DNA of 64,000 nt, taken from the NCBI RefSeq assembly GCF_003634695.1, contig NZ_RBWV01000011.1, positions 310,001 through 374,000 on the forward strand. The letters run 5' to 3'. Under the pieces are notes generated by a model that made no database searches, had not been told where the DNA came from, and saw only the letters and a list, made by a program, of their open reading frames with translations. This document shows, piece by piece, positions 32,534-58,569 of the stretch (position 1 is its first letter; the number at the start of each line of letters is the position of its first letter). The DNA is from Motilibacter peucedani (lineage in GTDB: Bacteria > Actinomycetota > Actinomycetes > Motilibacterales > Motilibacteraceae). The position numbers and the translations under genes are program-made.

Positions 32534-33485
32534 GGCCGGACGGCAGGTGCGCCGCTACGACACCGAGCTGCTCGCCGGTCGCGACCGGCTGCTCGAGGTC
32601 GACCCGGACGCCGACCTGGCGACCCACCGGGCGGCGCTCGCCGAGGCGATGGCCCACTTCGCGCGCGAGTCCGACGACGAGGTCGAGACCCGCGACGTGA
32701 CGGTGGCGGGCGAGGGCCGGCCGCTGCGGCTGCGGGTCCACGAGCCACGCGCCGGCGTCACCGGTGGTCTGCTGTGGCTGCACGGCGGCGCGTTCTCGCT
32801 CGGGGAGCCCGGCGTGGACGACGACCTCTGCCAGGAGCTCGCGGTGCGTCACGGGCTGCTGGTCGCGGCGCCCGACTACCGCCTCGCGCCCGAGCACCCC
32901 TTCCCCGCCGCCGAGCGCGACGCGGCCGTGGCGCTCTCGTGGCTCCAGCGGGAGCTGGCGGCGACCGTCGCGGCGGACGCGCCGTCGCCCCGACGCCTGG
33001 TCGTGGCCGGGGCCAGCGCCGGCGGCTCGCTCGCGCTGCGGACCACCCTGCACGCGGTGGCCGCTGGCTCCGAGGTGGAGCGGCTGGTGCTGGTCTACCC
33101 GGTCGTCCACGACCGGCAGGACTCGGGCTCCATGCGGCGCTACACCACCGCACCGGTGTTCGACTCCGAGCAGGCCGAGCTCATGTGGGACCGCTACCGA
33201 GGACCCGCGGCGAGCGGGCCGTGGCCCTCGCCGCTGCTCGACGACCGGCTGCCGCTGCTGCCGCACACGCTCGTCCTGCTCGCCGAGCACGACCCGCTGC
33301 GCGACGAGGAGCTCGAGCTGGTGCGGGCGCTGCTCGACGCGCGGGTGCCGGTGCACGCGCGGCTCGCGGCAGGCACCTACCACGCCTACGACCGGTTCGC
33401 GCCGCAGAGCCGCGCCGCGGCCGAGCTGTGGCGCGAGGTCCACGAGTTCCTGGCGCGGCCACCGCTCGCCCCCGCGGAGTGGTAG
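32505..33485 (+). CDS. alpha/beta hydrolase, HSL family (first copy)
   Basis: Esterase-like protein of 326 residues of the hormone-sensitive lipase family. The oxyanion-hole motif HGGAF (about residue 93), the nucleophile motif GASAGG, the acid in DPLRDE and the histidine in TYHAYDRF are all present. GTG 32505 is preferred, with GAGGGG about 10 bases upstream; GTG 32484 is possible. It is probably co-transcribed with the ABC transporter and may hydrolyse the imported compound. Confidence 0.85.
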
Positions 33486-33487
33486 CC

Positions 33488-34432
33488 ATGCCTGCAGCAC
33501 AGCACCTGGGGGGACGCATGGACGCCGAGCTGTCGGCAGCGCTGATCATGTTCGACATCGGTGACGGCACCGACCTCGAGGACGGTCGCGAGCGCCTGCA
33601 CGCGATCCACCGCACCAGCAGCCTCACGGTGCCGCACGCCGTCGAGGTCCGGGACATCGCTCCCGGTCCCGACGGCCCGCCCGTGCGGGTGCGCTTCTAC
33701 CGGCCGCGGGGGGCCGCAGACGTACCCGTCATGCTCTGGCTGCACGGGGGCGCGTTCGCGTTCGGCTTCGCCGAGATCGACGACGAGCTGTGCGTGCGGC
33801 TGGCCGAGGACTCGGGCTTCGCGATCGCGTCGCCCGACTACCGACTCAGCCCTGAGCACCCGTTCCCCGCGGCGTTCGACGACGGCTACGGCACCCTCGA
33901 GTGGGTGCTGCGCAACGCCGGCCCGCTGGGCCTCGACACCGGCTGCGTCGCGGTGGGCGGGTCGAGCGCGGGCGGCGCCCTGGCCGCGGGCGTGTGCCTC
34001 CGGGCGCGCGACGAGGGCGGTCCCGAGATCCACCAGCAGCTGCTGATCTGCCCCGTCACCGACGACCGGATGGCCACCCGCTCGATGCAGCTCTACACGC
34101 ACTCGCCGTGCTTCACGCGGCAGGGCGCCGAGCTGATGTGGGACCGCTACCTCGGGCCGTCGCGCGACGAGCCGCCGCGCTACGCCGCGCCTGCCCGGGA
34201 AGAAGACCTCTCGGGCCTGCCGCCGGCGTTCGTCCTCACGGCCGAGGAGGATCCGCTGCGCGACGAGGGGATCGACTACGCGCTGCGCCTCATCGCCGCC
34301 GGCACGTCCACCGAGCTGCACCACGTGCCAGGCACGTTCCACAGCTTCGACAGCATCGTGCCGACGGCCGGGGTGTCGCAGCGGGCCTACGCCGACTACC
34401 TGGCGGCGCTCCAGCGCTGCCGCACGCGGTAG
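33488..34432 (+). CDS. alpha/beta hydrolase, HSL family (second copy)
   Basis: A second HSL-family hydrolase of 314 residues directly downstream, clearly related to the preceding one (shared HGGAF, SPDYRLSPEHPFPAA, GSSAGG, LMWDRY and DPLRDE). The catalytic Ser, Asp and His are all present (GSSAGG, DPLRD, TFHSFD). The pair looks like a tandem duplication that has diverged. Both enzymes are probably cytoplasmic because no signal peptide is visible. Confidence 0.87.
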   Translation: MPAAQHLGGRMDAELSAALIMFDIGDGTDLEDGRERLHAIHRTSSLTVPHAVEVRDIAPGPDGPPVRVRFYRPRGAADVPVMLWLHGGAFAFGFAEIDDELCVRLAEDSGFAIASPDYRLSPEHPFPAAFDDGYGTLEWVLRNAGPLGLDTGCVAVGGSSAGGALAAGVCLRARDEGGPEIHQQLLICPVTDDRMATRSMQLYTHSPCFTRQGAELMWDRYLGPSRDEPPRYAAPAREEDLSGLPPAFVLTAEEDPLRDEGIDYALRLIAAGTSTELHHVPGTFHSFDSIVPTAGVSQRAYADYLAALQRCRTR

Positions 34433-37844: not shown

Positions 37845-40800
37845 TCAGCGGTGCGGTCTCTTGACCTTCGGCGCCACGGTGACGCTCACCGGCACGACCA
37901 GGTCGCTGTAGGGGTCGTCGCTCGCGACGTAGAGCGCCGCGGTGTAGGTGCCGAGGCCCCTCAGCGCAGGGTCGGAGGTGTCGACGCGGATGCGTACGCG
38001 CTTGCTCGCACTCGGTGCGAGCGTGAAGGTCGTGCGCCGCACCTGCATCCAGCTCAGGTCGACCGGCCCTGAGGTCCAGCCCGGCAGCACCTCGGCCGCC
38101 GGCGTCGGCGCCCCGGGCGCCGCCGCTCCGCCGATGGCGTAGAAGCCGGGCGCCGAGCCGCCGCGGTAGAGCGCGTTCAACGCGTTCGGCAGGGCGGACC
38201 ACCGCTCGGTCTTGGTGTCATAGGCCCAGGTCGCGTTGGTCAGCGCGTTGCCGACCACACCACTCGAGACCACGAGCTGACCGTTGGCTGCTGCGTAGAA
38301 CGCACCCCAGGCACTGGTCGGCTGGTCGGCGATCGGTGTCCACACCTTCGTGGCCGGGTCGTAGACGTAGGCCGAGGTGAGGTCGGCCTGGGTGACCGTG
38401 CCGCCGGAGCAGTAGAGCTTGCCGTCGATGCCACCGCATGCCTCCCAGCCGACGTACTCCGGGTAGTACGTGGGCTGCGACCACGAGTCGCTGACCGGGT
38501 CGTAGACCTGCACCTCCTGGGCTCCGCAGTCGTACCTGCTGCACCCGCCGACGAGCCACAGCTTGCCGTCGAGCACCGCGGTGCCCATGGCGGCGTAGGG
38601 CACCGGCAGGTAGGCGCCGGAGCTCCACGTGTCGGTGACCGGGTCGTAGACGTCGGTCGACCCCTCCTCGTAGCCCTGCGGCGAGAAGCCGCCGGTCACG
38701 ACGATCTTCCCGTCGAGCCAGGCCGCGGACGCGGCTTCGCGCGGGTGCGGGATGGGCGCACGGGTCGCCCACGTCTGGGACGCAGGGTCGTAGCGGTAGA
38801 GCGCGTCGGTGTCCTCGGTCCCGTTCCAGCCGGCCACCGACCACACGTAGCCACCACCGGAGACGACGGCGTTGTCCTGCAGCGGCACGGGCGGGCCGGG
38901 GATCCCCTTCCACCCCTCCGGCGACGCGGGCGCCGGTGTCGGTGCGGGCTTCCGCACGCCAGCGGCGGTGCGGGCCGCTGCTGCGTGCGACGTGCGGCTC
39001 ACGACCGCCGGCACGCGAAGGGCGGGTACGCCGCTGGTCGCGGCCGGTGTGAAGGTGCCGGGCCGCTCGGTGACCGTCACCGACACCGGCGCCGTACCGG
39101 TGTTCGACAGCGTGACGTCGGCGTGCCCGATGCCGCCCGGCTGCTCGGTGACGCCGATCCCGGTCGCGCTCGACGCCACCCGGCCCGCCTTCAGCGCGAC
39201 GTCGAGTGGCACCACGGCGTCCGGTCGCAGGGCGACCGGGCGCACGGCGGTCTGGTAGTTCTTGCGAGTCAGCGTGACGCTGCGGCTACCGGCGCTCGGC
39301 ACGAAGAGCTCGTAGAAGCCCTTCCCCACGGCCGGGTCGTCGCTGCTGGAGGTGGTGGTGCTCCGCGTCGGGTCGTCGGTCAGAGCCGCGCCGGCGCCGT
39401 CGACGGGTCTGGAGTCGTTCGCGTCGGTCACCGTGCCGGCGACCAGACCACCTGCGACCGGAACCTGCTGGCGGTCGCCCAGGTGGATGTCGTCGAGCTC
39501 CCACCACTTCCCGAACAGCACGGTGTCGTCGTAGTGGAAGCGCACGCGTACGCGGCTCTGGTGCGCGGCGGCGTCGAGCGGCACGAGGACGTGCCCGGTC
39601 AGCAGCTCGGAGCCCGGGTCGGTGGTGTCCCACGCCGTCTGCCACGTCGAGCCGCCGTCGGTGCTGAGGTCGACGGTCGCGACCTGGCCGTCTGACAGCA
39701 GCAGCCAGGTGTCGAACTCCAGCAGGGGGTGCGAGGCGTCGCTGAAGTCCGTCGGTGGGCTGGTCAAGGTCGACTCGAGGCGGGACCCCGCGGGCGTGCT
39801 GCTCGTGTCGACGAGGGCCATGCCGCCCGTGCCGCCGGTGAGGTTCTCGTAGCCGCTGGGGTTGTCGAGCACCCAGCCGGTGCCCGAGCCGGTGGTGTCG
39901 ACGGTCCACCCGGGCAGCTGACCGGTGTCGAGCGTCTCCACGGTGCCGGTGTCGGCGCGCGAGTAGCCCGCGACGTCCTCCAGCAGCGCGTCGACCGGCA
40001 GCTCGAGGTCCTCGACGGTGCCCGACGCTGCGACACGGACCTGCCGCGTGACCGGCGCGTAGCCGGGGGCGCGCGGTGTGACGTGCACGGTGTAAGGACC
40101 GCCCGCCGGCAGGTCGATGCTGTAGTGGCCGGAGTAGGGCGACGTGTGCAGCGTCCCGCCCGGGACGTCGTCCACGGTCACCGCCGCGGGCAGCGGCCAG
40201 CCGTGGCCGGAGCCGTCGCGCACCGTGCCCGAGAGCGTCGCCGTGGGCGCCTTGCGCATCTCCACGTCTCGCCTGACGGTGGCACCGTCGGCGACGACGA
40301 CAGTGCCGAGAGGCACGGCGTAGTAGCCGAAGGCCGACACCGTGGCGGTGTAGGTGCCGACGCGCAGGTGGGCGTCGTACGCGCCGGTGCCGTCCGCGTC
40401 GACACTCGTCTCCTGCTCCTGGCTGGTGAGCCGCAGCTGGGCCCCGGGCACCGGGCGGTGCGTCGCCGCGTCGAGGACGCGGCCGGTCAGCTCGCCGTGC
40501 GGCCCGGCCGCGAAGGCGCTCGTGCCGTCCGGCGTACCGAGGCCGGTCGGGCCGTCGTACCCGGCGTCGGCCGTGCACAGGTAGCGCGGCGAGCAGAACC
40601 CGTTGGCACCGGCAGTGACGTCGAACAGCGTCGCGCCAGGGGTGAGGTAGGGGTAGGACGCGGGGTCGGTGCCGGGCACCGGGGCGCCGGCCACGGCGTA
40701 CGTCGCGGTGACCAGCGGCGCGGACATGCTCGTGCCGCCCACCTGCTGCCACCCGCCGCCGTCGAAGGAGTTGTACATCGCAATGGCGGTGTCGGGGTCG

Positions 40801-41750
40801 GCGTCGGCCGAGACGTCGGCGACCGTGCGCTGTGCGCACCCGGAGTCGTGCTGCCAGGCGGGCTTCGGCTCGTAGACGGAGCACCCGCTGCCCGGGCCGC
40901 CGCCGTGGCTGTCCCAGACGGTCTCCTTCCACCCGCGCGGCGACGAGGGGTCACGCACGAGGCTGGTGCCGCCGACCGCCGTGACGAACGGCGCGGCCGC
41001 CGGCCACGAGACGCCGTAGTGGCTGTCGCCGGTGCTGGCGACCATGACGACGCCCGGGTGGTGGTAGTAGGCCTCCTGCCAGGTCAGCTCGATCGGGTCC
41101 TCGCCGCTGCCCGGGTCGAAGCTGTACCCGGAGCCGTAGCTGTTGGAGACGTACTTCGCCCCCAGGGCGACCGCCTGGTTGACGGCCTCACCCATGTCGA
41201 GGAAGCCCGGGGTGTCGGCCTCGACGAGGATGATGTCGGCCTCCGGCGCGACCGCCGTGACCGAGTCGACGTCGAGGGCGATCTCGCCCGCCCACCCGGC
41301 GTCGGAGGCGGGCGGGTAGTCGGTGCCGCCGCGCTGGTCGACCTTGCGGAACTGGCCCGGCCGCAGCGGCGGCAGCCCGAAGGTCGCGCGGTAGACCGCG
41401 AGGTCGGACTCGATGCCCGGGTTGTCGTAGGCGTCGACGATGGCGATCGTCGCGCCGGCGCCGCCACCGGCCGGAAGGCCGTAGGCGTCGCGGACGTCGG
41501 CGGGGGTCAGGCCCTCGGGCGTCGCGGTCGTCCGGACCTCGCCGTCCTGGGCCACGGCCTCGGCGAAGCAGCGGGCGACGCCCGGGCCGACCTCGGTGTC
41601 GCAGAGCGGGACGGTGTGCGGCTGGGGCGCGCGCGGCACCTGGCGCGGCGTCGCCGCCTCGGCGGGTGCCGTCAGCGTCGCGCACGCGAGCGCGGCGACC
41701 GCGCCGGTGACCAGCACCCGGCGGATCCGGGCGAAGGGGGTCGTAGTCAC
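37845..41750 (-). CDS. secreted S53 sedolisin with Kelch repeats
   Basis: Very large exported protein of 1301 residues. A signal peptide (ending APAEAA, about residue 33) is followed by a sedolisin protease domain (about 60-415) with catalytic E156/D160 (GEIALDVD), the oxyanion Asp in STGDSHYG and serine S341 (GGTSMSAP). Two carboxypeptidase-regulatory-like beta domains, a jelly-roll domain, another regulatory-like domain, about five Kelch repeats (about 965-1205) and a C-terminal Ig-like domain follow. It starts at GTG 41750. It should be an acid or serine-carboxyl protease acting outside the cell, with adhesion-like domains. The long stretch of add-on domains is unusual. Confidence 0.85.
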   Translation of the reverse strand: MTTTPFARIRRVLVTGAVAALACATLTAPAEAATPRQVPRAPQPHTVPLCDTEVGPGVARCFAEAVAQDGEVRTTATPEGLTPADVRDAYGLPAGGGAGATIAIVDAYDNPGIESDLAVYRATFGLPPLRPGQFRKVDQRGGTDYPPASDAGWAGEIALDVDSVTAVAPEADIILVEADTPGFLDMGEAVNQAVALGAKYVSNSYGSGYSFDPGSGEDPIELTWQEAYYHHPGVVMVASTGDSHYGVSWPAAAPFVTAVGGTSLVRDPSSPRGWKETVWDSHGGGPGSGCSVYEPKPAWQHDSGCAQRTVADVSADADPDTAIAMYNSFDGGGWQQVGGTSMSAPLVTATYAVAGAPVPGTDPASYPYLTPGATLFDVTAGANGFCSPRYLCTADAGYDGPTGLGTPDGTSAFAAGPHGELTGRVLDAATHRPVPGAQLRLTSQEQETSVDADGTGAYDAHLRVGTYTATVSAFGYYAVPLGTVVVADGATVRRDVEMRKAPTATLSGTVRDGSGHGWPLPAAVTVDDVPGGTLHTSPYSGHYSIDLPAGGPYTVHVTPRAPGYAPVTRQVRVAASGTVEDLELPVDALLEDVAGYSRADTGTVETLDTGQLPGWTVDTTGSGTGWVLDNPSGYENLTGGTGGMALVDTSSTPAGSRLESTLTSPPTDFSDASHPLLEFDTWLLLSDGQVATVDLSTDGGSTWQTAWDTTDPGSELLTGHVLVPLDAAAHQSRVRVRFHYDDTVLFGKWWELDDIHLGDRQQVPVAGGLVAGTVTDANDSRPVDGAGAALTDDPTRSTTTSSSDDPAVGKGFYELFVPSAGSRSVTLTRKNYQTAVRPVALRPDAVVPLDVALKAGRVASSATGIGVTEQPGGIGHADVTLSNTGTAPVSVTVTERPGTFTPAATSGVPALRVPAVVSRTSHAAAARTAAGVRKPAPTPAPASPEGWKGIPGPPVPLQDNAVVSGGGYVWSVAGWNGTEDTDALYRYDPASQTWATRAPIPHPREAASAAWLDGKIVVTGGFSPQGYEEGSTDVYDPVTDTWSSGAYLPVPYAAMGTAVLDGKLWLVGGCSRYDCGAQEVQVYDPVSDSWSQPTYYPEYVGWEACGGIDGKLYCSGGTVTQADLTSAYVYDPATKVWTPIADQPTSAWGAFYAAANGQLVVSSGVVGNALTNATWAYDTKTERWSALPNALNALYRGGSAPGFYAIGGAAAPGAPTPAAEVLPGWTSGPVDLSWMQVRRTTFTLAPSASKRVRIRVDTSDPALRGLGTYTAALYVASDDPYSDLVVPVSVTVAPKVKRPHR

Positions 41751-47938: not shown

Positions 47939-48364
47939 ATGATGGCAACTCGAGAGACCCGACCCCTGCTCGTCCTCATCGCCGGTCCTTACCGGTCAGG
48001 CACGGGCGACGACCCGGACAGGCTGGCCGCCAACCTGGCGAGCCTCGAGGAGGCGGCGTGGCCCGTGTTCCGCACCGGTCACGTGCCGATGATCGGCGAG
48101 TGGGTCGCCCTGCCGGTGCTGCGCGGCGCGGGCGGCACGTCTGTCGCCGACCCGGTCGCGGGCGAGGTCATGTACCCCACCGCGGAGCGTCTCCTGGCGC
48201 ACTGCGACGCGGTCCTGCGGCTCCCCGGCGCGAGTGGGGGAGCCGACCAGGACGTCGCGATCGCGCAGGAACGCGGAATCCCCGTGTGGTACTCGCTCGA
48301 GGAGGTGCCGGGCTACCGCGCCGCTGCCGGCGACCCGGTCTTCGAGCCGGTCGGCGTCAGCTGA
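47939..48364 (+). CDS. DUF4406-like, deoxyribosyltransferase-fold protein
   Basis: Protein of 141 residues with a nucleoside 2-deoxyribosyltransferase-like Rossmann fold as in DUF4406. Motifs are LIAGPYRSGTGDDP at the N-terminus and a later LPGASGGADQDVAIA, followed by GIPVWYSLEEV. It probably binds a nucleotide-like ligand. Reaction unknown. It starts at ATG 47939 (or 47942). Its stop overlaps the convergent SGNH hydrolase gene by 8 bases. Confidence 0.72.
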   Translation: MMATRETRPLLVLIAGPYRSGTGDDPDRLAANLASLEEAAWPVFRTGHVPMIGEWVALPVLRGAGGTSVADPVAGEVMYPTAERLLAHCDAVLRLPGASGGADQDVAIAQERGIPVWYSLEEVPGYRAAAGDPVFEPVGVS

Positions 48365-49256
48365 CGGGCCCGAGGGTCGCCAGCGCGCGGACGACGTGGC
48401 GGACCAGCAGGACCTGGCCCTCGAGGGTCGGGTGCACGCCGTCCGGCAGCCAGAACGAGTCCTCGACCTGCACAGGAGGGCCGACCAGGTCGGGCAGCGC
48501 GGCGGCCAGGGCGGCGAGGGTCTCCTCGAGGTCGGCGCTGCTGAAGCGGGTCGGCGCGCCGTCGGGAGCGGTCGCCTCGTAGCGCGCGTCGTCCATGGGC
48601 GGGGGCGCGAGCGCGACGAAGCGCGCCTGCGCCTCCTGCTCGGCCAGTGCCTTGAGCGCCAGCATGTTGCGCCGCGTCTCCTCCGGGCTGACCGTGCGCA
48701 CGTCGGCAACGGCGCCCTGGCGTCGGCCGTCGTTGGTGCCGAGCATCGTGATGACGCACGTCGGCCGCTCGCGCACCGCCAGGTCGAACATCGCGATCGT
48801 CTCGTTGGTCGTCGCCGCGCTGACAGCGAGGTTCGCGACGCTGGCGGGAGCTCCCCCGGGCAGCGCGTCGAGGCACGCGGCCAGCAGGGTCGCCCAGCCG
48901 AGGCTGTCGGCGGTGATCGAGTCGCCGAGCACGACGACGCGCTGCCCCGTCGCGGCAGGCACGCGGTCGAGGTCGGCGGCGAAGCCCTCGTCGGCGAGCA
49001 GCTGCGCCGCGGCCTCGGCCACTGCCCGCGCGTGCTGCGCGCGGATGTCGCGCAGCTGCTCGGGCGTGCAGCCGACGAAGTGGGCGTCGAGCACCAGCGC
49101 GAGCTCCGCGTCGAGCCCGACCATGGCGTGGAGCGGCAGCCGGCTGTAGTGCGTGTAGCGCGCGATGGTGGCCGCGTCGAGCCAGGCCGGGGCACCGTTG
49201 CCGCGGCCCGGCAGCGGCGCGGGCGCGCTCGACCGGTCGGTCGTCTCGTCGAGCAC
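48357..49256 (-). CDS. SGNH/GDSL hydrolase (esterase)
   Basis: Cytoplasmic SGNH-family esterase of 299 residues. An N-terminal extension of about 100 residues precedes the GDSI block (VVVLGDSITADS, catalytic serine). The block III equivalent is GTND (TMLGTNDGR), and the catalytic Asp/His are in LPDGVHPT. Position at the end of a sugar ABC operon next to a GH120 enzyme suggests deacetylation of imported sugar, for example acetylated xylo-oligosaccharide; that is inference. GTG or ATG starts further upstream are not needed; ATG 49256 follows the permease stop by 6 bases. Confidence 0.82.
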   Translation of the reverse strand: MLDETTDRSSAPAPLPGRGNGAPAWLDAATIARYTHYSRLPLHAMVGLDAELALVLDAHFVGCTPEQLRDIRAQHARAVAEAAAQLLADEGFAADLDRVPAATGQRVVVLGDSITADSLGWATLLAACLDALPGGAPASVANLAVSAATTNETIAMFDLAVRERPTCVITMLGTNDGRRQGAVADVRTVSPEETRRNMLALKALAEQEAQARFVALAPPPMDDARYEATAPDGAPTRFSSADLEETLAALAAALPDLVGPPVQVEDSFWLPDGVHPTLEGQVLLVRHVVRALATLGPVS

Positions 49257-49262
49257 GGCTCG

Positions 49263-50087
49263 TCAGCCCTTGACCGAGCCCTGCAGCAGCGCGGTGACGA
49301 ACTGGCGCTGGAACAGCAGGAAGACGGCGAGCGTGGGGGCGAGGATGAGCACTGATCCCGCGCACAGCAGGGGGATGTCGGTGCCGTACTGGCCCTGGAA
49401 CGCCCCGAGGGCGCCGGCCATCGTGCGCTTGGTCGGGTCGTCGACCAGCACGATCGCCAGCAGGAACTGGTTCCAGGTCCACAGGAACAGCAGCAGCCCC
49501 AGCGACGAGAGCGCCGGCACGGCTAGCGGCACCTGGATGCGCCAGAACTGCTGCCACAGGTTGGCGCCGTCGACGCTGGCCGCCTCCGAGAGCTCCTGCG
49601 GCACGTTGACGAAGTGCGCCCGCATCCACAGCACCGAGAACGGCATGAACAGCCCGATCAGCGGGAGGATGATCGCCCACCGCGTGTTGAGGAGCCCCAT
49701 GTCCCGGACCTGGTAGTAGAGCGGGGTGAGGATGCCCTCGAAGGGCAGCGTGAGCCCGAGGACGAACAGCAGGAACACCGCCCGGTGCCCGGGCATCCGC
49801 AGGTGGCCGAACGCGTACCCGGCCATGGTGCCGAGCAGCAGCGAGGCCGGGACGACGCCCGCGACGATGAGCAGGCTCGAGAGCAGCAGCGTGCCCATGT
49901 GGGCAGCCTCGAAGGCGTCGGCGAAGTTGCCCCAGTGCGGGCTGTCCGGCCACGAGATGCCCTCGGGGTAGGTGCCCGGCTCGTGCAGCGCGGTGACCAC
50001 CAGGCTGACGAAGGGCAGCACCGTGATGACCATGAGCAGGACGAGCAGCACTCGGCCGACGAGGGCCTCGCGACGCTGGACGATCAT
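49263..50087 (-). CDS. sugar ABC permease, MalG type
   Basis: Permease of 274 residues with six membrane helices. The EAA-type loop is present as ELSEAASVDGANLWQQFWRI. It is the second permease of a binding-protein-dependent sugar importer. It overlaps the MalF-type gene by 4 bases (ATGA). No ATPase gene is adjacent, so a shared MsiK-like ATPase elsewhere in the genome is likely. Confidence 0.93.
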   Translation of the reverse strand: MIVQRREALVGRVLLVLLMVITVLPFVSLVVTALHEPGTYPEGISWPDSPHWGNFADAFEAAHMGTLLLSSLLIVAGVVPASLLLGTMAGYAFGHLRMPGHRAVFLLFVLGLTLPFEGILTPLYYQVRDMGLLNTRWAIILPLIGLFMPFSVLWMRAHFVNVPQELSEAASVDGANLWQQFWRIQVPLAVPALSSLGLLLFLWTWNQFLLAIVLVDDPTKRTMAGALGAFQGQYGTDIPLLCAGSVLILAPTLAVFLLFQRQFVTALLQGSVKG

Positions 50088-51031
50088 TCGTCGCGCTCCT
50101 TGGTGAGCCACTGGACGGGGAGGACGCAGGCGAGCACCAGCAGCATCAGGGCCACGCCCAGCGCGGAGGCCTGGCCGACCTGCCGCTCGGTGAAGGCGAG
50201 GTAGAAGATCTCGAGCCCGGGGACCATGCTCGAGTTGCCGGGTCCGCCCTGCGTCGAGATGTAGATGATGTCGAAGCTCGCCAGCGCGGCGATGACCGTC
50301 ACGGTGACGCAGACGCCGATCTCCTGGCGCAGCGCCGGCAGCGTGATGGAGACGAACTCGCGCACGGCGCCCGCGCCGTCGAGGCGGGCGGCCTCGTAGA
50401 GCGACGGGTCGATCTTCGTCATGCCGGCCAGCAGGAGCAGCGTGCAGAGGCCCAGCAGCACCCAGGCGCCGATGACGCCGACCGCAGGCAGGGCGAAGGT
50501 GAAGTCGCCGAGCCAGGCGCGGGTGACGCCACCCAGGCCCACCCAGCCCAGCACCTGGTTGACGAAGCCGGTCGACGAGAGCAGCCAGCTCCAGACGATG
50601 CCGGCGGCGACCAGCGGGATGACCTGCGGGAGGAACAGCACCGTACGCGCCACGACCGCGAGCCTGCTGGCGGCGATCGCGCGGATGGAGGTCGCGATGA
50701 GCAGGCCGAGCAGCACCGGCACCGCGCTGAAGAAGACGATGAGCTTGAACGCGTTGAGGATCGAGTGCGAGAGCACCGAGTCCGTGAACAGCCTGCTGTA
50801 GTTCTTCAGGCCGACGTAGGTGGAAGCGCCCACGCCGTCCCAGTCGTAGAGCGAGTACTGCACGCTCACGACCATCGGCCGGAGCACGAAGACCGCGTAG
50901 ACCAGCAGCGCGGGAGCGACGAACAGCCACCCGGTCCAGCGGGCGCGCCCGCCACGACGCCGCCGCCGCGGGGCCGGTGCGGACGCCGTGGTCGGCGCCG
51001 CACCGCCCGCCTGCTGCGTCTGCGAGCTCAC
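50084..51031 (-). CDS. sugar ABC permease, MalF type
   Basis: Permease of 315 residues with a positively charged, Ala/Pro-rich N-terminus and six helices. The EAA loop reads SLYEAARLDGAGAVREFVSI. It starts one base after the binding-protein stop. It pairs with the MalG-type protein to form the sugar channel. Confidence 0.93.
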   Translation of the reverse strand: MSSQTQQAGGAAPTTASAPAPRRRRRGGRARWTGWLFVAPALLVYAVFVLRPMVVSVQYSLYDWDGVGASTYVGLKNYSRLFTDSVLSHSILNAFKLIVFFSAVPVLLGLLIATSIRAIAASRLAVVARTVLFLPQVIPLVAAGIVWSWLLSSTGFVNQVLGWVGLGGVTRAWLGDFTFALPAVGVIGAWVLLGLCTLLLLAGMTKIDPSLYEAARLDGAGAVREFVSITLPALRQEIGVCVTVTVIAALASFDIIYISTQGGPGNSSMVPGLEIFYLAFTERQVGQASALGVALMLLVLACVLPVQWLTKERDE

Positions 51032-51032
51032 G

Positions 51033-52466
51033 TCAGCGCTTCAGCTGGGACTGGTAGTCCTTCTGCACCGCCGCGAGCATGCCGTCGCCGGTCTGCTGAC
51101 CGCCGACCATCTTCTGCAGGTTCGGCGTCCAGCTCTTGGCGTAGATCGCTCCTGTGGCGTTGGCGATGAAGTCCATGGCGCCGTTGTCCTGACCGATCTT
51201 CGCGCCCGCCTCGAGGGTGGCCGCCGTGACGGTGCCCTCCTTCACCGGGGGCATGAAGGCGTCGGCCGGGCCCATGGGGTGCGAGCCGCCGACCTCGACG
51301 TCGATGGTCCGTGCCTTGTCGTTCGTCGCGACCCAGTTGAGGAAGAACGCGGCGCAGTCAGGGTGCTTGGCCTTCGCGCCGATGCCGTAGGTCAGCGGGG
51401 CCGACATGGCCGCCTGCTTGCCACCGGCCTGGACCGGAGGCATGAGGAAGAAGCCGACGTTGCCGGCCATCTGCTTGTCGAGGTTGCCCGACTCCCAGTC
51501 GCCGTCGAAGATGAACAGGCTCTTGCCGCCGATGAAGCGGCTCATCATCGCCGCGTAGTCCATAGAGTTGACGTCCTTGGCGAAGTAGCCCGACTTGATC
51601 CAGCCCTGCAGGTGCTGCGCGGCCTGCTTGTTGGTGTCGGTGTCGATCGTGGCGCCCTGCTTGTTGAAGATCCAGTCGTTGATGGGACCCGCCGGGCCGT
51701 AGGCCGCCATGAGGTTCTGCAGCGGGAAGGCGAAGCCGCCCGTGGCACCGCCGTTGAACTGCGCGATGGGCGTGATGCCGGCCGCCTTCGCCTTGCCCAG
51801 CAGGGCGTCGAAGTCCGCGAGGGTCTTCGGAGCCTCGGTCATGCCGATCTGCGCGGCGAGCTTCTTGTTGTAGAAGATGCCGGTCATGCTGAAGTTCAAG
51901 CCGTTGGCGTAGAGCGGGCCGGAGCCGCGGCTGCCGTCGTCGGAGACGCGCAGCTGCTCGAGCTGCGAGGCCGGCCACTGGTCCCACCCGAAGGCCTTGG
52001 CGTAGTCGTCGAGGTCGAGCAGCAGCTTGTCCTTCGCCAGCTCGGACATCTGCGGCAGGCGCATGAGGTCGGGGGCGTTGTCGGCCAGCGTGCGCGGTGC
52101 GTTCTGCGTGATCACCGCGAACTGGTCCTCGCGGATGTCCCACGTGACGTTGGGGAACTGCTTGGTGAACTCGTCGGTCAGCGCCTTCGGCAGCGGGAAG
52201 CCGGTCTCGAAGTAGCCGCTCATGGTGACCGGCGCCGTGCCGCACGACGGGGTCGCGCTGGCCGCGCCGACCGTGCTGGTGGCACCACCACTGGCGCCAC
52301 CCGCCGCGCTGCTGGGCGCGGCGTCGCTGGAGGAGTCGCTGCCGGGACCGCCGCAGGCGGCGGTGAGGGCCAGCGAGAGCACCGCCACCGCGCCGAGCCG
52401 CCACCGTCGACCCTGGGACGGGGCACGGCGTCGACCCATCGACGCTGCGAGCTGACGAGCAGGCAT
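51033..52466 (-). CDS. sugar ABC substrate-binding lipoprotein
   Basis: Extracellular binding protein of 477 residues (SBP_bac_1 class). A signal peptide with a twin-arginine-like basic start (GRRWRLG) ends in a lipobox with AACGG (cysteine near 38), then a Ser/Ala/Gly linker. The core includes NVTWDIREDQ and FIFDGDWESGN. ATG 52466 is supported by AAGGAG 6 bases upstream. Specificity cannot be read, but the locus points to xylo-oligosaccharides. A LacI operator lies at 52567. Confidence 0.92.
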   Translation of the reverse strand: MPARQLAASMGRRRAPSQGRRWRLGAVAVLSLALTAACGGPGSDSSSDAAPSSAAGGASGGATSTVGAASATPSCGTAPVTMSGYFETGFPLPKALTDEFTKQFPNVTWDIREDQFAVITQNAPRTLADNAPDLMRLPQMSELAKDKLLLDLDDYAKAFGWDQWPASQLEQLRVSDDGSRGSGPLYANGLNFSMTGIFYNKKLAAQIGMTEAPKTLADFDALLGKAKAAGITPIAQFNGGATGGFAFPLQNLMAAYGPAGPINDWIFNKQGATIDTDTNKQAAQHLQGWIKSGYFAKDVNSMDYAAMMSRFIGGKSLFIFDGDWESGNLDKQMAGNVGFFLMPPVQAGGKQAAMSAPLTYGIGAKAKHPDCAAFFLNWVATNDKARTIDVEVGGSHPMGPADAFMPPVKEGTVTAATLEAGAKIGQDNGAMDFIANATGAIYAKSWTPNLQKMVGGQQTGDGMLAAVQKDYQSQLKR

Positions 52467-52566
52467 TCGGACTCCTTCGACCGGCGACCAGGGAGGTGCG
52501 CCGGAGGGGGTCCACCGGCGCCGCTGCCCGCAGTCAAGCACAGCGGAGCGCCGTCGCCAAGACCTT

Positions 52567-52582
52567 CTACAAAAGCACTTCG
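52567..52582. promoter_or_regulatory. LacI operator copy 1 (ABC operon)
   Basis: CTACAAAAGCACTTCG lies 101 bases before the binding-protein gene. It shares 14 of 16 positions with the site at 53681 upstream of lacI itself. The core AAGCACTT is near-symmetrical, as for LacI-family sites. Confidence 0.7.
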
Positions 52583-52610
52583 ATCTGCAACCGAGCTGTG
52601 ACATCCCGGC

Positions 52611-53618
52611 TCACGAGGGCACTGTGCCGGTCGTCCCCCTCGTGACCAGCGAGCAGTCGAGGACGGTCACCGTCCGCGGCGCGCGCGGGTCGGCCATCCG
52701 GCTCAGCAGCAGGCGTACGGCTGCGGCCCCCGACTCCGCGAACGGCTGCGCCACGGTGGTGAGGCCGGCCGCGCTGGCCGCGGGCCCGTCGTCGTATCCC
52801 ATGACCGAGACGTCCTCGGGCACCCGCAGGGACAGGTCGCGGGCGGCGTGCAGCGCACCCACCGCCAACTCGTCGTAGTGGGCCATCACGGCGGTGGGCC
52901 GCTCGTCCGCCGACAGCAGCTCGTGCGCCGCCTGCCGGGCCTGCTCCGCAGTCGGTCCGGACGCGGCGACGTGCAGCGTGGTGCCGCCGTGCCGGTCGAG
53001 CGCGTCGCGGAAGCCGTCGAGCCGCTGGCGGGCCTGGGAGTCGTAGTCGGACTCCTGGCGCTCGGTGAGGTAGCCGATGCGCCGGTGGCCCAGCGCCAGC
53101 AGGTGCTCGGCCGCCGTCGCGCCGCCGCGGAAGTCGTCGGTCACGACCACGCTGAACAGCTCGCTGCGCGCGTCGACGAGCACCGTGGGCATGCCCCGCT
53201 CGAGCAGGCGGCGCTCGACCGCCTCCTCGATCCGCTCCCCCATGACGACGATGCCGTCGAGCTGCCCGCGGATCGCCGACGCGGCCAGCGCCGGCGAGGT
53301 GGCTGCGGCCGCCGACGGGATGTCGATGACCCGCGTCTCCTGCCCGGTGTCGCGCAGGGCGGTCAGCACGCCGGTCAGCCGGGCGTAGTAGGAGGCGTAG
53401 GCGGTGAAGGGGGCGAGGATGCCGATGCAGCCGGCGCCGCGGCGGGCCTGCGAGACGGCCGCGGGCTTGGGCACGAAGCCGAGGCGGTCGGCCGCCGAGA
53501 GCACGCGCTCGCGCGTCGCGGCGCTGACCCGGTCGGGCCGGTTGAGCGCGTTCGAGACGGTCGAGATGCTCACCCCGGCGTCGTGCGCCACGTCGTAGAT
53601 CGTGACCTGCTTCGTCAT
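52611..53618 (-). CDS. LacI-family transcriptional repressor
   Basis: Repressor of 335 residues. The N-terminal helix-turn-helix and hinge are canonical (VTIYDVAHDAGVSISTVSNA, then RPDRVSAATRERV). The rest is a periplasmic-binding-like sugar-sensing domain. Two near-identical operator sequences lie upstream of this gene and upstream of the ABC operon, indicating autoregulation. The inducer is probably a sugar released by the locus, such as xylose or xylobiose. Confidence 0.93.
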   Translation of the reverse strand: MTKQVTIYDVAHDAGVSISTVSNALNRPDRVSAATRERVLSAADRLGFVPKPAAVSQARRGAGCIGILAPFTAYASYYARLTGVLTALRDTGQETRVIDIPSAAAATSPALAASAIRGQLDGIVVMGERIEEAVERRLLERGMPTVLVDARSELFSVVVTDDFRGGATAAEHLLALGHRRIGYLTERQESDYDSQARQRLDGFRDALDRHGGTTLHVAASGPTAEQARQAAHELLSADERPTAVMAHYDELAVGALHAARDLSLRVPEDVSVMGYDDGPAASAAGLTTVAQPFAESGAAAVRLLLSRMADPRAPRTVTVLDCSLVTRGTTGTVPS

Positions 53619-53680
53619 GACCTGGGCCCTCTCGCGGCGCTCGACGGACGGCGTGCCGCGCGGAGCCCGGCAGCGAGACC

Positions 53681-53696
53681 CTACAGAAGCACTTCT
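53681..53696. promoter_or_regulatory. LacI operator copy 2 (lacI gene)
   Basis: CTACAGAAGCACTTCT contains the inverted repeat AGAAG-CA-CTTCT. It lies 63 bases before the lacI start, overlapping a TAGGGT -10-like hexamer on the minus strand (plus-strand ACCCTA at 53678-53683). Confidence 0.72.
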
Positions 53697-53718
53697 ACGA
53701 GGGGGCGCGCTGCTGCCG

Positions 53719-54549
53719 TCAGGCGGGGTAGTCCGTGCCCACGCTGGTCCGCTCCCAAGCCGCCAGCTCGGCGAGCTGGGCGTCGAACACGCCGCGGATG
53801 GCGCTCAGCGCGTCGGAGCCGAGCATGAGCAGCGCCGGCGGCTCGTCGGCCTCGACCGCCGCGATGATGGCCTGTGCCGCGCGAGCCGGGTCGCCGGGCT
53901 GCGTGCCGTGGGCAGTGTCGTGCTCCTTGCGCCGCTTGCCCGCCGTCTCGGCGTAGTCGTCGATGGGCGTGGCGGCCTGCTGGAGCGAGCGGCCCGCGAA
54001 GTCGGTGCGGAAGCCGCCCGGCTCCACGACCACCACGGAGATGCCGAGCGGCGCCAGCTCCTTGCGCAGCGAGCCGGACAGCCCCTCGAGCGCCGACTTC
54101 GTCGCCGCGTAGTAGCCGGAGCCCGGAGGGCAGACGCGGGCGCCGATCGAGGAGATGTTGACGATGGCGCCGCTGCGGCGGGCGCGCATGCCGGGCAGCA
54201 CGGCCTTGATGAGCGCGACGGGGCCGAAGACGTTGGTGGCGAACAGCGCCGCCACGTCGGCGTCGTCACCCTCCTCGACCGCCGCGCGGTAGCCGTAGCC
54301 GGCGTTGTTGACCAGCACCTCGATGCCGGCGAAGCGCTCCTCGCCGGCGCGTACGGCTGCGGCCACCTGCTCGTGGTCGGTGACGTCGAGCGCCACCGCC
54401 AGAGCGGTGTCCGGGTACGCGTCGGCGAGCTCCCGCACAGACCCCGGGTCGCGGGCGGTGACCACGGCGTTGTGGCCCGCCTCGAGGACCGCGCGGGCGA
54501 GGTCGCGCCCGAGCCCGGTCGAGCTGCCGGTGATGAGCCAGGTCGCCAT
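53719..54549 (-). CDS. SDR-family oxidoreductase
   Basis: Short-chain dehydrogenase of 276 residues. Motifs are TGSSTGLG, NNAGYGYRAA, ISSIGA (serine) and YYAATKSALEG. Closely similar in type to the SDRs at 26047 and 43568. It is 20 bases downstream of the GH120 gene and probably co-transcribed with it. ATG 54549 has GAGGACG upstream. Its role in the sugar locus is unclear. Confidence 0.9.
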   Translation of the reverse strand: MATWLITGSSTGLGRDLARAVLEAGHNAVVTARDPGSVRELADAYPDTALAVALDVTDHEQVAAAVRAGEERFAGIEVLVNNAGYGYRAAVEEGDDADVAALFATNVFGPVALIKAVLPGMRARRSGAIVNISSIGARVCPPGSGYYAATKSALEGLSGSLRKELAPLGISVVVVEPGGFRTDFAGRSLQQAATPIDDYAETAGKRRKEHDTAHGTQPGDPARAAQAIIAAVEADEPPALLMLGSDALSAIRGVFDAQLAELAAWERTSVGTDYPA

Positions 54550-54569
54550 GGTCGTCCTCTCCTCGTGCG

Positions 54570-56543
54570 TCACCAGACGCGCAGGCGCGCCTCGCCACCG
54601 GCCAGCGAGGTGAGCGGGCCCGCGGGGTAGCTGCTGGCGGCGTCCTTGCGCTCGCCGGTGAGGTCGGCGTCGACGACGAGCGGGCTGCCGTCGCGCTCCT
54701 CGAAGTCGGCGTCCACGAAGCGCGTGCGCTCGAGGTCGGCCGAGGTGACGACCCCGACGCGTACGCCGTCGAAGCCCTGCGGCAGCTGCAGCTGCAGGTA
54801 GACCTCGGTCCCCTCGTCGACGACCTCGAGCGAGGCGTCGCCGTCGAGCACGAGCGGGCTCGACTCGCCGTCAGAGGCGCGAGCCCCTGCGGCGTAGACG
54901 TTGTCGCGCAGGTAGACCGGCTGCTTCACGCCGGGGAAGCGCTGGTGGTCGCCGGCCGGCTGGGCGTCGACGCGTGCGAGGTACTCGTCGAAGCTCGTGG
55001 GGTGGCCGTCGAACACGGCGGTGCCGTGCCCGACCGGGCCCTGGAACGGGAAGCCGTCGGGGGCGTAGGCGTGGTCGACGTCGCCGCCGAGGAAGACGTT
55101 GCCGATGAAGCGGTCGTCCCCGCCGTAGATCACCGCGTAGCCGGCGACCTGCGTGCTGTGGGGAACGTGGTACGGCGTGGCTCGGTCCCACACCGGCTCC
55201 CACCGCAGCGTCCCGCCGAACAGGTTGTTGACGAACGCGCCGCCCTGGCTGAAGGACTCGAACGACACGGGCGAGGCGAGCACGTTGTGGTCGACGACGT
55301 AGGGGCCGTGGCTGACCTCGACGAACAGGTCGCGGTTGTTGCGGTAGAAGACGTTGCGCGAGATGCGGGTGCCCTGCGTCTCCCAGTCCAGCCAGGTGCC
55401 CAGCGAGCAGTCGTGGATGCGGTTGTGGACGATCTCCACGTCGATCGCGGCGTGGAGCTTGATGCCGCCGATCTCGTAGCCGTAGAACTCGCGCTTGAGC
55501 GCGATGTGGTGGATGTGGTTGTCCTCGATGGTCGAGAACACGCAGCCGAGGTGGCCCACGATGCCGTTCTGGCCGCAGTCGTAGATCTCGTTGCGGCGCA
55601 CCACGTGCGAGCCCACGTGCTCCCGGTCCCACCCGATGTGGCGGGCGGAGAAGACCGACTCGAGCTGGTACTGGTAGCCCGGCTTGTCGCCGCGGGTGGT
55701 CGCGAAGTTGTGGCCGGTCGATGCCTCCTTGCCCAGGGAGACGGCCGAGCACTTGGCGTCGTGGATGACGTTGTCCTCGATGACCCAGCCCTTGGCCCAG
55801 TTGGGGCCGATGAGACCCGGCTGGTCGGCCGTCGGCGGGGTCCACGGGCACGCCGCCTGCGCCAGCTCGAAGCCGCGCACGGTGATGAAGTCGATGTGGT
55901 GCTCGGTGGGGTAGAAGACCGAGCGGCGCACGTTGATCTCGACCAGCTCGGCGTTGGGGTCGGCCCCCTGGAAGTTGGCCCAGATCGTGGTGGCGTCGTC
56001 GGCCACCTCGGCGTACCAGACGAAGCGGGTCTGCTCGGGGTCGCGCACCTGGTCGGGCAGGCCGGTCCAGTTGTCGACGACCTCGGCGCGCACCGGCGGG
56101 TCGGCGACCTCGTCGGCCGAGAGCACCTCGTAGAAGCTCTTGCCGTTGAGGTAGACGTCGCCGAGGTGCTTGCGGCGCGACTCGCCCTCGGGGTGGACGA
56201 CCCAGTCGCCGACGAGCTCCTCGGCGTAGGGGTTGAAGTCGCCGAAGAGCGTGTTGGGCACGGTGACGCGCCAGACGCTGCCCCCGGCCTGCTCCCACCC
56301 GGTGACCTGCTCCGAGCCCTTGATCGCCACGTGCTCTCCGGGCGCGGCCAGGTAGGTGATCCGGCGCCGGTCGCTCAGGCCGCCGCGGCGCGGCCGCACC
56401 CACTCGCGGTAGACGCCCCCGTGGACGACGACCGTGTCACCGGCCCGGGCGAGGTCCGCCGCACGCTGGATGGTGCGGAGCGGCTGGTCCTCGGCCCCGG
56501 AGGCCGAGTCGGAACCGGTCGTCGCGACGTGCAGGGCAGCCAT
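54570..56543 (-). CDS. GH120 beta-xylosidase
   Basis: Glycoside hydrolase family 120 enzyme of 657 residues, a right-handed parallel beta-helix. It is very similar to the Thermoanaerobacterium XylC beta-xylosidase as I recall it. Conserved pieces include AQAACPWTPPTADQPGLIG, IGGIKLHAAIDV and STQVAGYAVIYGGDDRF. The catalytic pair fits: D386 in GTWLDWETQG and E409 in LFVEVSHGP, exactly 23 residues apart as in XylC (D382/E405). No signal peptide, so it acts on imported oligosaccharide. ATG 56543 gives the expected short N-terminus (MAALHVATTGSD). Confidence 0.88.
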   Translation of the reverse strand: MAALHVATTGSDSASGAEDQPLRTIQRAADLARAGDTVVVHGGVYREWVRPRRGGLSDRRRITYLAAPGEHVAIKGSEQVTGWEQAGGSVWRVTVPNTLFGDFNPYAEELVGDWVVHPEGESRRKHLGDVYLNGKSFYEVLSADEVADPPVRAEVVDNWTGLPDQVRDPEQTRFVWYAEVADDATTIWANFQGADPNAELVEINVRRSVFYPTEHHIDFITVRGFELAQAACPWTPPTADQPGLIGPNWAKGWVIEDNVIHDAKCSAVSLGKEASTGHNFATTRGDKPGYQYQLESVFSARHIGWDREHVGSHVVRRNEIYDCGQNGIVGHLGCVFSTIEDNHIHHIALKREFYGYEIGGIKLHAAIDVEIVHNRIHDCSLGTWLDWETQGTRISRNVFYRNNRDLFVEVSHGPYVVDHNVLASPVSFESFSQGGAFVNNLFGGTLRWEPVWDRATPYHVPHSTQVAGYAVIYGGDDRFIGNVFLGGDVDHAYAPDGFPFQGPVGHGTAVFDGHPTSFDEYLARVDAQPAGDHQRFPGVKQPVYLRDNVYAAGARASDGESSPLVLDGDASLEVVDEGTEVYLQLQLPQGFDGVRVGVVTSADLERTRFVDADFEERDGSPLVVDADLTGERKDAASSYPAGPLTSLAGGEARLRVW

Positions 56544-56657
56544 GCGTACGTGGGCCTTCCGGACGATGCCTCGCACCGCGCCCTTCGGGACGACCCCGAC
56601 GGTGGGTGCCTGTGCCTCCCATTCGACCACGCCGCGCGGGGCCCCAGCAGGGGGGCC

Positions 56658-56676
56658 CGCGCGGGGGGCCCGCGCG
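56658..56676 (-). terminator. GC hairpin downstream of the AKR gene
   Basis: CGCGCGGG-GGG-CCCGCGCG forms an 8-bp perfect stem. It lies in the 146-base gap between the aldo/keto reductase stop and the GH120 start, so it may end the reductase transcript. No U-tract. Confidence 0.5.
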
Positions 56677-56689
56677 TGGGTCCGGCGAT

Positions 56690-57577
56690 TCACCCCTCCG
56701 GGATCGGCCGGTCGTAGAAGTCGCCCCGCGGCTCGTCCGGGTCGGGTCCCGTGCGCATGAGGGTGTCCAGGTCGTCGATCCTGCGCACCTCGTCCGCGTC
56801 GAGCCGGAAGTCGAAGACGTCCAGGTTCTCCGCGATGCGCCCAGGGTTGGTCGACTTCGGGATGACCGAGCGGCCCTGCTGGATCCCCCACCGCAGCATC
56901 ACCTGGGCCGCAGACTTCCCTCGGGCCCGCGCGATGCCGGCGATCGTGGGGTCCTGCATGACGTTGCGGCGGTCCTCCCGCCAGGGCCCGGGGTAGAACG
57001 TGATGCCACCGATCGGCGACCAGGCCTGGGTGAGGATGCCGCGCGCGCGGTCGGCGGCCTGGACGGCGGGCTGCTGGAAGTAGGGGTGCAGCTCGACCTG
57101 GTTTACGGCAGGCACGACGTCGACCTCGGCGAGCAGGCGCTCGAGGTGGTGGGGCATGAAGTTGCTCACGCCGATCGCACGCACGGCGCCGTCTGCCAGC
57201 AGCTTCTCGAGCGCTCGGTAGGCCGCGACGGTCCGCTCGAACTGGCTCGGGCGCGGCTGGTGGATGAGCAGGAGGTCGAGGTGGTCGACGCCGAGCTTGC
57301 GCGTCGACTTCTCGAAGGCGTGCAAGGTCTGCTCGTAGCCGTAGTCGCTCGGGAAGACCTTCGTCTCGACGAAGACCTCCTTGCGCGGCAGTCCGGCACG
57401 GCGCAACCCCTCTCCCACCTCCGTCTCGTTGAAGTAGGCCGCTGCGGTGTCGACGTGGCGGTAGCCCGCCTCCAGGGCGGTCGCCACGGCGGCGGCGGTC
57501 TCCTCGGGCCGGCTCTGGTAGACGCCCAGGCCCAGTGCGGGAAGCGTGACGCCGTTGTTGAGAGTGATCGTCTCCAT
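56690..57577 (-). CDS. aldo/keto reductase
   Basis: NADPH-dependent reductase of 295 residues of the AKR superfamily, closest in style to 2,5-diketogluconate reductase/AKR5 types. The catalytic tetrad is visible: Asp and Tyr in HVDTAAAYFNE, Lys in VETKVFPSD and His in LLLIHQPRP. It reduces a carbonyl, possibly a sugar. It is divergent from the XRE regulator at 57679, which probably controls it. Confidence 0.92.
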   Translation of the reverse strand: METITLNNGVTLPALGLGVYQSRPEETAAAVATALEAGYRHVDTAAAYFNETEVGEGLRRAGLPRKEVFVETKVFPSDYGYEQTLHAFEKSTRKLGVDHLDLLLIHQPRPSQFERTVAAYRALEKLLADGAVRAIGVSNFMPHHLERLLAEVDVVPAVNQVELHPYFQQPAVQAADRARGILTQAWSPIGGITFYPGPWREDRRNVMQDPTIAGIARARGKSAAQVMLRWGIQQGRSVIPKSTNPGRIAENLDVFDFRLDADEVRRIDDLDTLMRTGPDPDEPRGDFYDRPIPEG

Positions 57578-57625
57578 GAGCCCATGGGACTCCGACCGCC
57601 CGGCACGGGGAAGTGGCCGCCGCTC

Positions 57626-57671
57626 GGGGGACTGGCGGTACCCCCCAGCGCCGGCGGTCCGCGCGTACTGT
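57626..57671. promoter_or_regulatory. operator-like repeat and leaderless -10
   Basis: GGGGG and CCCCC flank ten bases (57626-57645) between the AKR gene and the XRE gene, and a TACTGT hexamer at 57666-57671 lies 7 bases before the ATG of the XRE gene. This is a plausible operator and leaderless promoter. Confidence 0.4.
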
Positions 57672-57678
57672 GCCCCGC

Positions 57679-58569
57679 ATGGACCTGCGGACGGAGATCT
57701 CCGAGTTCCTGCGCACTCGCAGGGCGCGGATCACCCCGCAGCAGGCCGGTCTGGGTGCCGGTGCCGGCAGGAGGGTGCCCGGGCTCCGGCGCGAGGAGGT
57801 CGCGGTCCTGGCGTCCATCTCGGTGGACTGGTACGTGCGCATCGAGCGCGGCAACCTCTCCGGTGTCTCCGACGAGGTGCTCGTCGCGCTCGCGACGGCT
57901 CTGCAGCTCGACGACGCGGAGCTGGCGCACCTGCGTGACCTCGCCAGGGCCGCTCGTGCTCCGCGACGCCCGGTGGGCAGCGCGTCACCCCCAGCGCTGC
58001 GCCCCGGGCTGCAGACCGTGATCGACTCGATGCAGGGGCTGCCCGCGTGGGCGCGCGACCACCGGTTCGACATCGTCGCGACCAACGCGCTGGCACGCGC
58101 GCTCTACGACGACCTCCTGCACAGCGAGGTCGCGCAGGGCAACAACGCCCGCTTCACCTTCCTCGACCCCGTCGCCCGAGACTTCTACGTCGACTGGGAG
58201 AAGACCGCCGACGACGTCGTCGCGGTCCTCCGCGGCTACGTCGGCGCCAGCCCGACGGACCGGCGCCTCACGACGCTGGTCGGCGAGCTCGCCACCCGGA
58301 GCACGGACTTCTCCCGGCGGTGGGCGGCGTACGACGTGAAGTACCACCGCACCGGGCGCAAGACGCTGCGCCACCGCGTGGTCGGTGAGCTCGATCTCGG
58401 CTTCGAGGCTCTCGCGCTGCCCGACTCGTCGACCTTGAGCCTGTTCGTCTACCACGCCGCCGACGAGCCGACGCGCGAGAGGCTGCAGCTGCTCGAGAGC
58501 TGGTACGCCGGTGAGGTGCGCGACGACCCGTTCGTCCCGAGGAGCAGCAGTGGTCAGCATCAGCCGTGA
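57679..58569 (+). CDS. XRE-family regulator with MmyB-like domain
   Basis: Regulator of 296 residues of the same class as the gene at 24493. The helix-turn-helix (about 8-75) includes RVPGLRREEVAVLASIS and WYVRIERGN. An MmyB-like ligand domain follows (RFDIVATNALARALYDD). The last 20 bases overlap the next gene. It is probably leaderless, and divergent from the aldo/keto reductase, its likely target. Confidence 0.9.
   Translation: MDLRTEISEFLRTRRARITPQQAGLGAGAGRRVPGLRREEVAVLASISVDWYVRIERGNLSGVSDEVLVALATALQLDDAELAHLRDLARAARAPRRPVGSASPPALRPGLQTVIDSMQGLPAWARDHRFDIVATNALARALYDDLLHSEVAQGNNARFTFLDPVARDFYVDWEKTADDVVAVLRGYVGASPTDRRLTTLVGELATRSTDFSRRWAAYDVKYHRTGRKTLRHRVVGELDLGFEALALPDSSTLSLFVYHAADEPTRERLQLLESWYAGEVRDDPFVPRSSSGQHQP

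Follow-up and report, generated by a model that had tools for sequence, protein, structure and literature searches.

Do the genes packed around a family 120 glycoside hydrolase (GH120) gene of Motilibacter peucedani form one sugar pathway or two? The stretch analyzed here, called the window, is 64,000 nt of assembly GCF_003634695.1 (contig NZ_RBWV01000011.1, positions 310,001-374,000). On its minus strand, at 48357-57577, lie in a row the genes of an aldo-keto reductase (AKR), the GH120 enzyme, a short-chain dehydrogenase/reductase (SDR), a LacI repressor, a solute-binding protein (SBP), MalF-type and MalG-type permeases (permF and permG) and an SGNH hydrolase (Table 1). All of them had been recognized together in a first-pass annotation and are present with Pfam support, but the further reading as a single locus for import and hydrolysis of acetylated xylo-oligosaccharides (XOS) was not supported. 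Conservation across genomes and the placement of a predicted operator split the locus, which is probably two independent neighboring sugar modules: a GH120 xylosidase fed from elsewhere, and an importer under LacI control whose cargo would be a beta-fructoside or a decorated form of one. One single XOS system at this place is unlikely. In the following, G000 is the genome carrying the window, G001 is a genome of the same genus, and L-numbers denote fetched loci.

Sequence comparison gives good support both to the GH120 assignment and to a role as beta-xylosidase. The GH120 insertion domain (PF21258) is matched with an E-value of 4.9e-46, and residues 4-657 align over nearly full length with XylC of Thermoanaerobacterium saccharolyticum (PDB 3vst, with 3vsu and 3vsv) at 855 bits, a likeness by sequence that includes the catalytic pair. 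The Asp/Glu pair noted earlier was confirmed: Asp386 and Glu409 (codons 55386-55388 and 55317-55319) align with Asp382 and Glu405 of 3vst, which by their numbers we take to be the catalytic residues, and 81 out of 103 residues in the block around the pair are identical to XylC. No signal peptide was seen by eye in the GH120 protein. Xylose-pathway genes present in the GH120 loci of some relatives support the beta-xylosidase role. Among the genes of such loci are xylose isomerase and GH3 in L027, D-xylonate dehydratase in L041, and GH39 in L055; L028 has an FGGY sugar kinase whose similarity to gluconokinase/XylB is below the cut-offs. An Asp nucleophile and a Glu acid/base are given for GH120 in the available part of a 2019 review (PMC6887791), where two characterized GH120 enzymes are named, both beta-xylosidases.

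Within its family the window enzyme is unremarkable. In a scan of GTDB species genomes at least 594 stretches matched GH120, at least 574 of them at E<=1e-3, and among the first 41 of the matches listed (L022-L062; 80 of at least 594 were kept) all but L033, L056, and L058, hence 38, have names of actinobacteria. GH120 enzymes of the actinobacterium Bifidobacterium have already been described (PMC6887791 and PMC13360511, in the parts available). The earlier remarks that GH120 is a small family and that such loci are little described in actinobacteria hold only in part; in the class sample, on the other hand, GH120 is rare, with 3 out of 393 genomes. Within the order (5 genomes) only G000 has it.

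The importer, for its part, is kept without the xylosidase. G001 contains the full LacI-SBP-permF-permG-SGNH run without GH120, at 78% identity for LacI, 86-89% for the SBP, 91% and 89% for the permeases, and 63-65% for the SGNH hydrolase. In G001 this module has another set of neighbors, namely genes for rhaM-like, AKR, sugar kinase, KDPG aldolase, KduD-like SDR, zinc-dependent alcohol dehydrogenase, and GH130 proteins. SBP relatives at E<=1e-50 were found in 19 out of 296 class genomes and SGNH relatives in 8 out of 396 phylum genomes, G000 being included in both counts; five of the eight other SGNH places were fetched, and neither a permease nor an SBP of this importer was found at these five. 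In the class samples GH120 and this importer coincide in G000 alone, the two lists being matched through genome handle numbers across the two sample sizes. Among the 41 gene-called GH120 loci (L056 and L058 left out; L020 duplicates L035) no match to the window SBP was found at E<=1e-10, and 11 of the 41 carry one SBP-permF-permG cassette type. In the order, class, and congener comparisons, therefore, importer and xylosidase were not conserved together.

What accompanies the importer in relatives is mostly a fructosidase gene. From the 18 SBP-positive class genomes besides G000, 16 were fetched (G153 and G234 left out). The close SBP group (57-86% identity) comprises 12 genomes besides G000, and the slot after permG is visible in 11 of them, since the L140 stretch stops before permG. 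GH68 or GH32-like genes are linked to the importer in 9 out of these 11 loci: a GH68 gene lies inside the operon in seven (L135, L136, L137, L138, L139, L141, and L142), and a GH32-like gene lies in the operon of L143 and behind a divergent lacI in L144, whose slot is filled by an EstB-type gene. The other two visible loci (L017 and L134) have an SGNH hydrolase in the slot. Genes in relatives were called by a GC3 heuristic, which missed GH68 in L136 and L137, where it was recovered by other searches. The L138 copy matches levansucrase structures in PDB (E 3e-75); five called copies carry WD(M/L)WP, RDP, and EIERPH and four carry EWSGS, all of which we take to be GH68 motifs. Fructokinase-like kinases stand near the importer in three loci, namely ROK kinases in L138 and L139 (244 and 237 bits to ScrK fructokinase, below the curated cut-off of 400) and a PfkB kinase in L143 (match to PRK09434 fructokinase, below the curated cut-off). 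The L142 stretch includes a DUF2961 gene, presumably a link to a difructose dianhydride enzyme family. Such a family is described in the available part of PMC8605356. The L135-L144 importers form a coherent group in actinobacteria, probably for fructoside uptake; no published description of a GH68- or esterase-linked importer group of this kind was found among literature titles and abstract openings, and the present comparison brings it to notice.

The window SBP itself resembles this group closely. Nine fructosidase-linked SBPs share 166 invariant columns, and the window protein retains 159 of these (63 out of 66 for polar or aromatic columns), compared with 160 in G001, 149 in L134, and 77-113 in the more distant L145-L149. 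In a tree with the root placed by hand on L145-L149, the window and G001 proteins group with L143 (support 0.80), L134 is near, beside the GH68 clade, and L144 falls outside both. For the alignment the last 500 residues were used in L140 and L141, where the heuristic gene calls fused the SBP; the window SBP start was set at 52466, shorter than the longest open reading frame (ORF; start 52604). Judging from the conserved columns and the tree position, the ligand is likely common to the window SBP and the fructosidase-linked SBPs. A PDB search with the window SBP gave no match at E<=1e-3 to the XOS-binding proteins 3vxb, 4g68, and 3zkk. The GH120-linked SBP of L032 does match 3vxb (E 4.3e-92), 4g68, 8xba, and 3zkk.

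If the window importer does not feed the xylosidase, another one in the same genome may do so. The best G000 relative of the L032 SBP, 42% identical, is encoded at C10:388870-390165. It is BxlE-like, matching 3vxb (which we take to be the xylobiose-binding BxlE) at E 5.9e-71 and with 4g68 and 3zkk also among its top hits, and it is adjoined by two permeases, a LacI gene, and a divergent GH3 gene. The GH3 protein matches PDB 7zb3 and the beta-xylosidase model NF052329, the latter at 994 bits against a cut-off of 1050; a similar arrangement in G001 has a GH3 of 1018 bits against the same cut-off. By sequence, this BxlE-like importer appears the likelier XOS entry route than the window importer. 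The C10 locus, not the window importer, resembles the bxl system of Streptomyces (BxlEFG, BxlA beta-xylosidase, and BxlR in the available part of PMC12772271) in its SBP, two permeases, GH3, and LacI.

The predicted operator separates the two modules as well. The core GAAGTGCTT occurs twice in the window, ahead of lacI and ahead of the SBP gene (expected 0.08; 1 out of 100 shuffles had two), and none was found in the window ahead of GH120, SDR, or AKR. It also stands ahead of both genes in L017 and L134, and L134 has it a third time, within the SBP gene. In a scan of 17 importer loci the core was present in L017, L134, L146, L147, and L149 and absent from L135-L145 and L148, whose called LacI proteins form a separate group. 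The LacI of L017, L134, L146, and L147 belongs to the group of the window LacI, and this co-occurrence of site and LacI group supports the predicted operator. G000 contains 8 matches to the pattern GAAGTGCTTY, and only the two window sites are intergenic by the heuristic gene calls; two other matches fall within called ORFs that are short (99 and 64 aa). Since the LacI of the fructosidase-linked loci is of a different group, the effector in the window lineage may differ from theirs, and a decorated fructoside is kept as an option for this reason.

Taken together, we propose the following two-module arrangement. In the first module, a cytosolic retaining GH120 enzyme with the SDR would trim xylose off short XOS. 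Their entry would be by a different route, the likeliest being the BxlE-like importer near C10 388,870-390,165. The SDR gene begins 20 bases past the GH120 stop codon and is possibly co-transcribed with it, and SDR-like genes occur in four GH120 loci of relatives (L027, L031, L040, and L056; 30-36% identity). In the second module, an autoregulated LacI would control the SBP, permF, and permG genes. No ATPase was found by Pfam search among ten proteins tested in 47939-58569, and the energizing subunit would be supplied in trans from elsewhere in the genome. From gene neighborhood and SBP conservation we infer a beta-fructoside-type cargo; sucrose, short fructo-oligosaccharides, and decorated relatives are examples. 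In the slot usually taken by GH68 or a GH32-like gene in close relatives, the SGNH hydrolase may strip an ester from the imported compound. Its sequence carries GDSI, GTND, and DGVHP, corresponding to the GDS, GxND, and DxxH blocks that we take as SGNH/GDSL hallmarks.

Several observations weigh against this proposal. The expected fructoside-cleaving enzyme is missing, since neither GH32 nor GH68 was found in G000 (PF00251 and PF02435 were searched, other sucrose-cleaving families not). In G001 nothing beyond a weak and partial match to GH32N was seen. G043, which lies outside the genus and likewise has SGNH in the slot, is without GH32 and GH68 as well but is 87% complete. The fructosidase-linked loci L135-L144 are without GAAGTGCTT, and their called LacI proteins, at 30-34% identity, form the other group mentioned above. 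With 8 matches in G000 versus 17 for a reversed control pattern, GAAGTGCTTY shows no enrichment there, and the site ahead of L017 lacI falls inside a called ORF, which is probably spurious. The BxlR motif reported for Streptomyces (searched in four string forms; PMC12772271, available part) was not found at the C10 locus, which counts against a strict bxl assignment there, nor in the window. GH120 and the importer share a strand, and read-through is conceivable. Finally, the importer in L136, L137, and L017 also adjoins genes resembling those of L-fucose, L-rhamnose, or 2-keto-3-deoxygluconate catabolism: 2,4-didehydro-3-deoxy-L-rhamnonate hydrolase-like, AKR, SDR, enolase-type, and GH29 genes, together with RhaM-like and KDPG aldolase genes.

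A narrower version of the second module has the importer take up an acylated fructoside, such as a sucrose ester, which the hydrolase deacylates and a fructosidase, where present, then splits; the window lineage would keep only the esterase linked. Esterase-like genes of unrelated families do recur near the importer: Abhydrolase_3 or hormone-sensitive-lipase type genes in L138, L139, and L143; beta-lactamase-fold EstB/LipL type genes in L144 and in the more distant L146 and L147; and EstA-like genes in L140-L143. Representatives of these esterase-like genes were tested and the rest assigned by clustering. All five loci with a window-group LacI carry an esterase-type gene directly after permG, either SGNH (window, L017, and L134) or EstB type (L146 and L147). 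However, this recurrence has no background rate for comparison, none of the esterase clusters was found in L135-L137, and the EstA-like proteins were recognized by an Ig-like domain only. We know of no acyl-sugar substrate for any of these esterase-like families, and no relevant paper on such substrates turned up among literature titles and abstract openings. On balance we find this version unlikely. Its extension to the whole importer family, as a dedicated actinobacterial route for acylated fructosides (e.g., plant sucrose esters) in which unrelated esterases and GH68 or GH32-like enzymes alternate as partners and loci with the window-type LacI keep the esterase step only, strikes us as unlikely.

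The reading that started this analysis, in which the SBP binds acetylated XOS, the SGNH hydrolase deacetylates them and GH120 cuts off xylose, draws on a genuine GH120 enzyme, on genes that all share one strand within about 9 kb, and on the absence of GH32 and GH68 from G000. In the available part of PMC13360511, XOS clusters of Bifidobacterium join glycoside hydrolases, an ABC importer, and a regulator, with esterases in other species, and GH120 lies within the XOS clusters of some B. longum strains. It is nevertheless contradicted by the importer module kept without GH120, by the GH68 or GH32-like partners of most close importer orthologues, by an SBP unlike known XOS-binding proteins, by the lack of a predicted operator ahead of GH120, and by the separate BxlE-like system, and we judge it distinctly improbable. 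The substrate of an importer should not be named from an adjacent glycosidase. A recruitment of the importer to XOS in this species, with GH120 replacing a lost fructosidase and the SBP changing specificity, would fit the missing GH32/GH68 genes and the combination of GH120 with the importer in G000 alone among these samples, yet it is highly improbable given the 86% identity between the SBPs of the window and of the GH120-less G001, their 159 and 160 of 166 conserved columns, and operator sites that are common to G001 and not placed ahead of GH120.

The two modules can also be compared with known systems. The B. longum xyl-xou cluster with its GH120 enzyme XouC resembles the window in having GH120 near an ABC importer and a regulator in an actinobacterium, but as far as the cluster is described in the available part of PMC13360511 it contains xylA, xylB, and two GH43 genes, and no counterpart of these was seen among the ten window proteins that were tested in the GH120 region. 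The nearest likeness of the second module is the SBP-permF-permG-GH68 operons (L135-L139, L141, and L142), with SBPs 69-74% and permeases 74-78% identical to those of the window; they differ in GH68 itself (L138 and L139 also with the ScrK-type kinase) and in lacking the operator core, whereas the window has SGNH in a genome without GH32 or GH68. Regulons in which a LacI-family protein governs the uptake and hydrolysis of sucrose are known, in one actinobacterial lineage too, from the available part of PMC4052901; the transporters listed there are permeases, phosphotransferase systems, and porins, and the likeness to the window is by description only.

Table 1. Features of the window around the GH120 gene and the importer
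Feature	Position	Strand	Basis or remark
SGNH/GDSL hydrolase	48357..49256	-	Lipase_GDSL_2; 6 bases after permG
MalG-type permease (permG)	49263..50087	-	BPD_transp_1
MalF-type permease (permF)	50084..51031	-	BPD_transp_1
Family 1 solute-binding lipoprotein (SBP), 477 aa	51033..52466	-	SBP_bac_1; lipobox-like LTAAC by eye
Predicted LacI operator core GAAGTGCTT ahead of SBP gene	52573..52581	-	Pattern search
LacI-family repressor, 335 aa	52611..53618	-	LacI and Peripla_BP_3 Pfam matches
Predicted LacI operator core GAAGTGCTT ahead of lacI	53687..53695	-	Pattern search
SDR oxidoreductase, PRK06180-like	53719..54549	-	adh_short Pfam match
GH120 predicted beta-xylosidase, 657 aa	54570..56543	-	Pfam PF21258, 3vst match, catalytic residue mapping
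Aldo-keto reductase, DkgA-like	56690..57577	-	Aldo_ket_red Pfam match; assigned to neither sugar system
MmyB-type (MLTR_LBD) helix-turn-helix regulator	57679..58569	+	Divergent from AKR gene

The SDR and AKR were considered together as pathway enzymes and rejected, both being of generic subfamilies, and the divergence of the AKR gene from the MmyB-type regulator gene counts against AKR as part of one XOS locus. Between AKR and GH120 a terminator scan listed no terminator, and the hairpin there is no better than in shuffles (z -0.99). Elsewhere in the window are tandem alpha/beta hydrolase (Abhydrolase_3) genes (32547-33485 and 33518-34432, plus strand), a GH42 beta-galactosidase gene (22323-24482, plus strand) unrelated to this locus, and a gene for a 1301-residue protein (37845-41750, minus strand) with a subtilase domain match and carboxypeptidase-regulatory-like and kelch repeats. 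Two Glyco_hydro_88 (PF07470) matches lie elsewhere in the genome, at L001 (on C13) and L002 (on C10).

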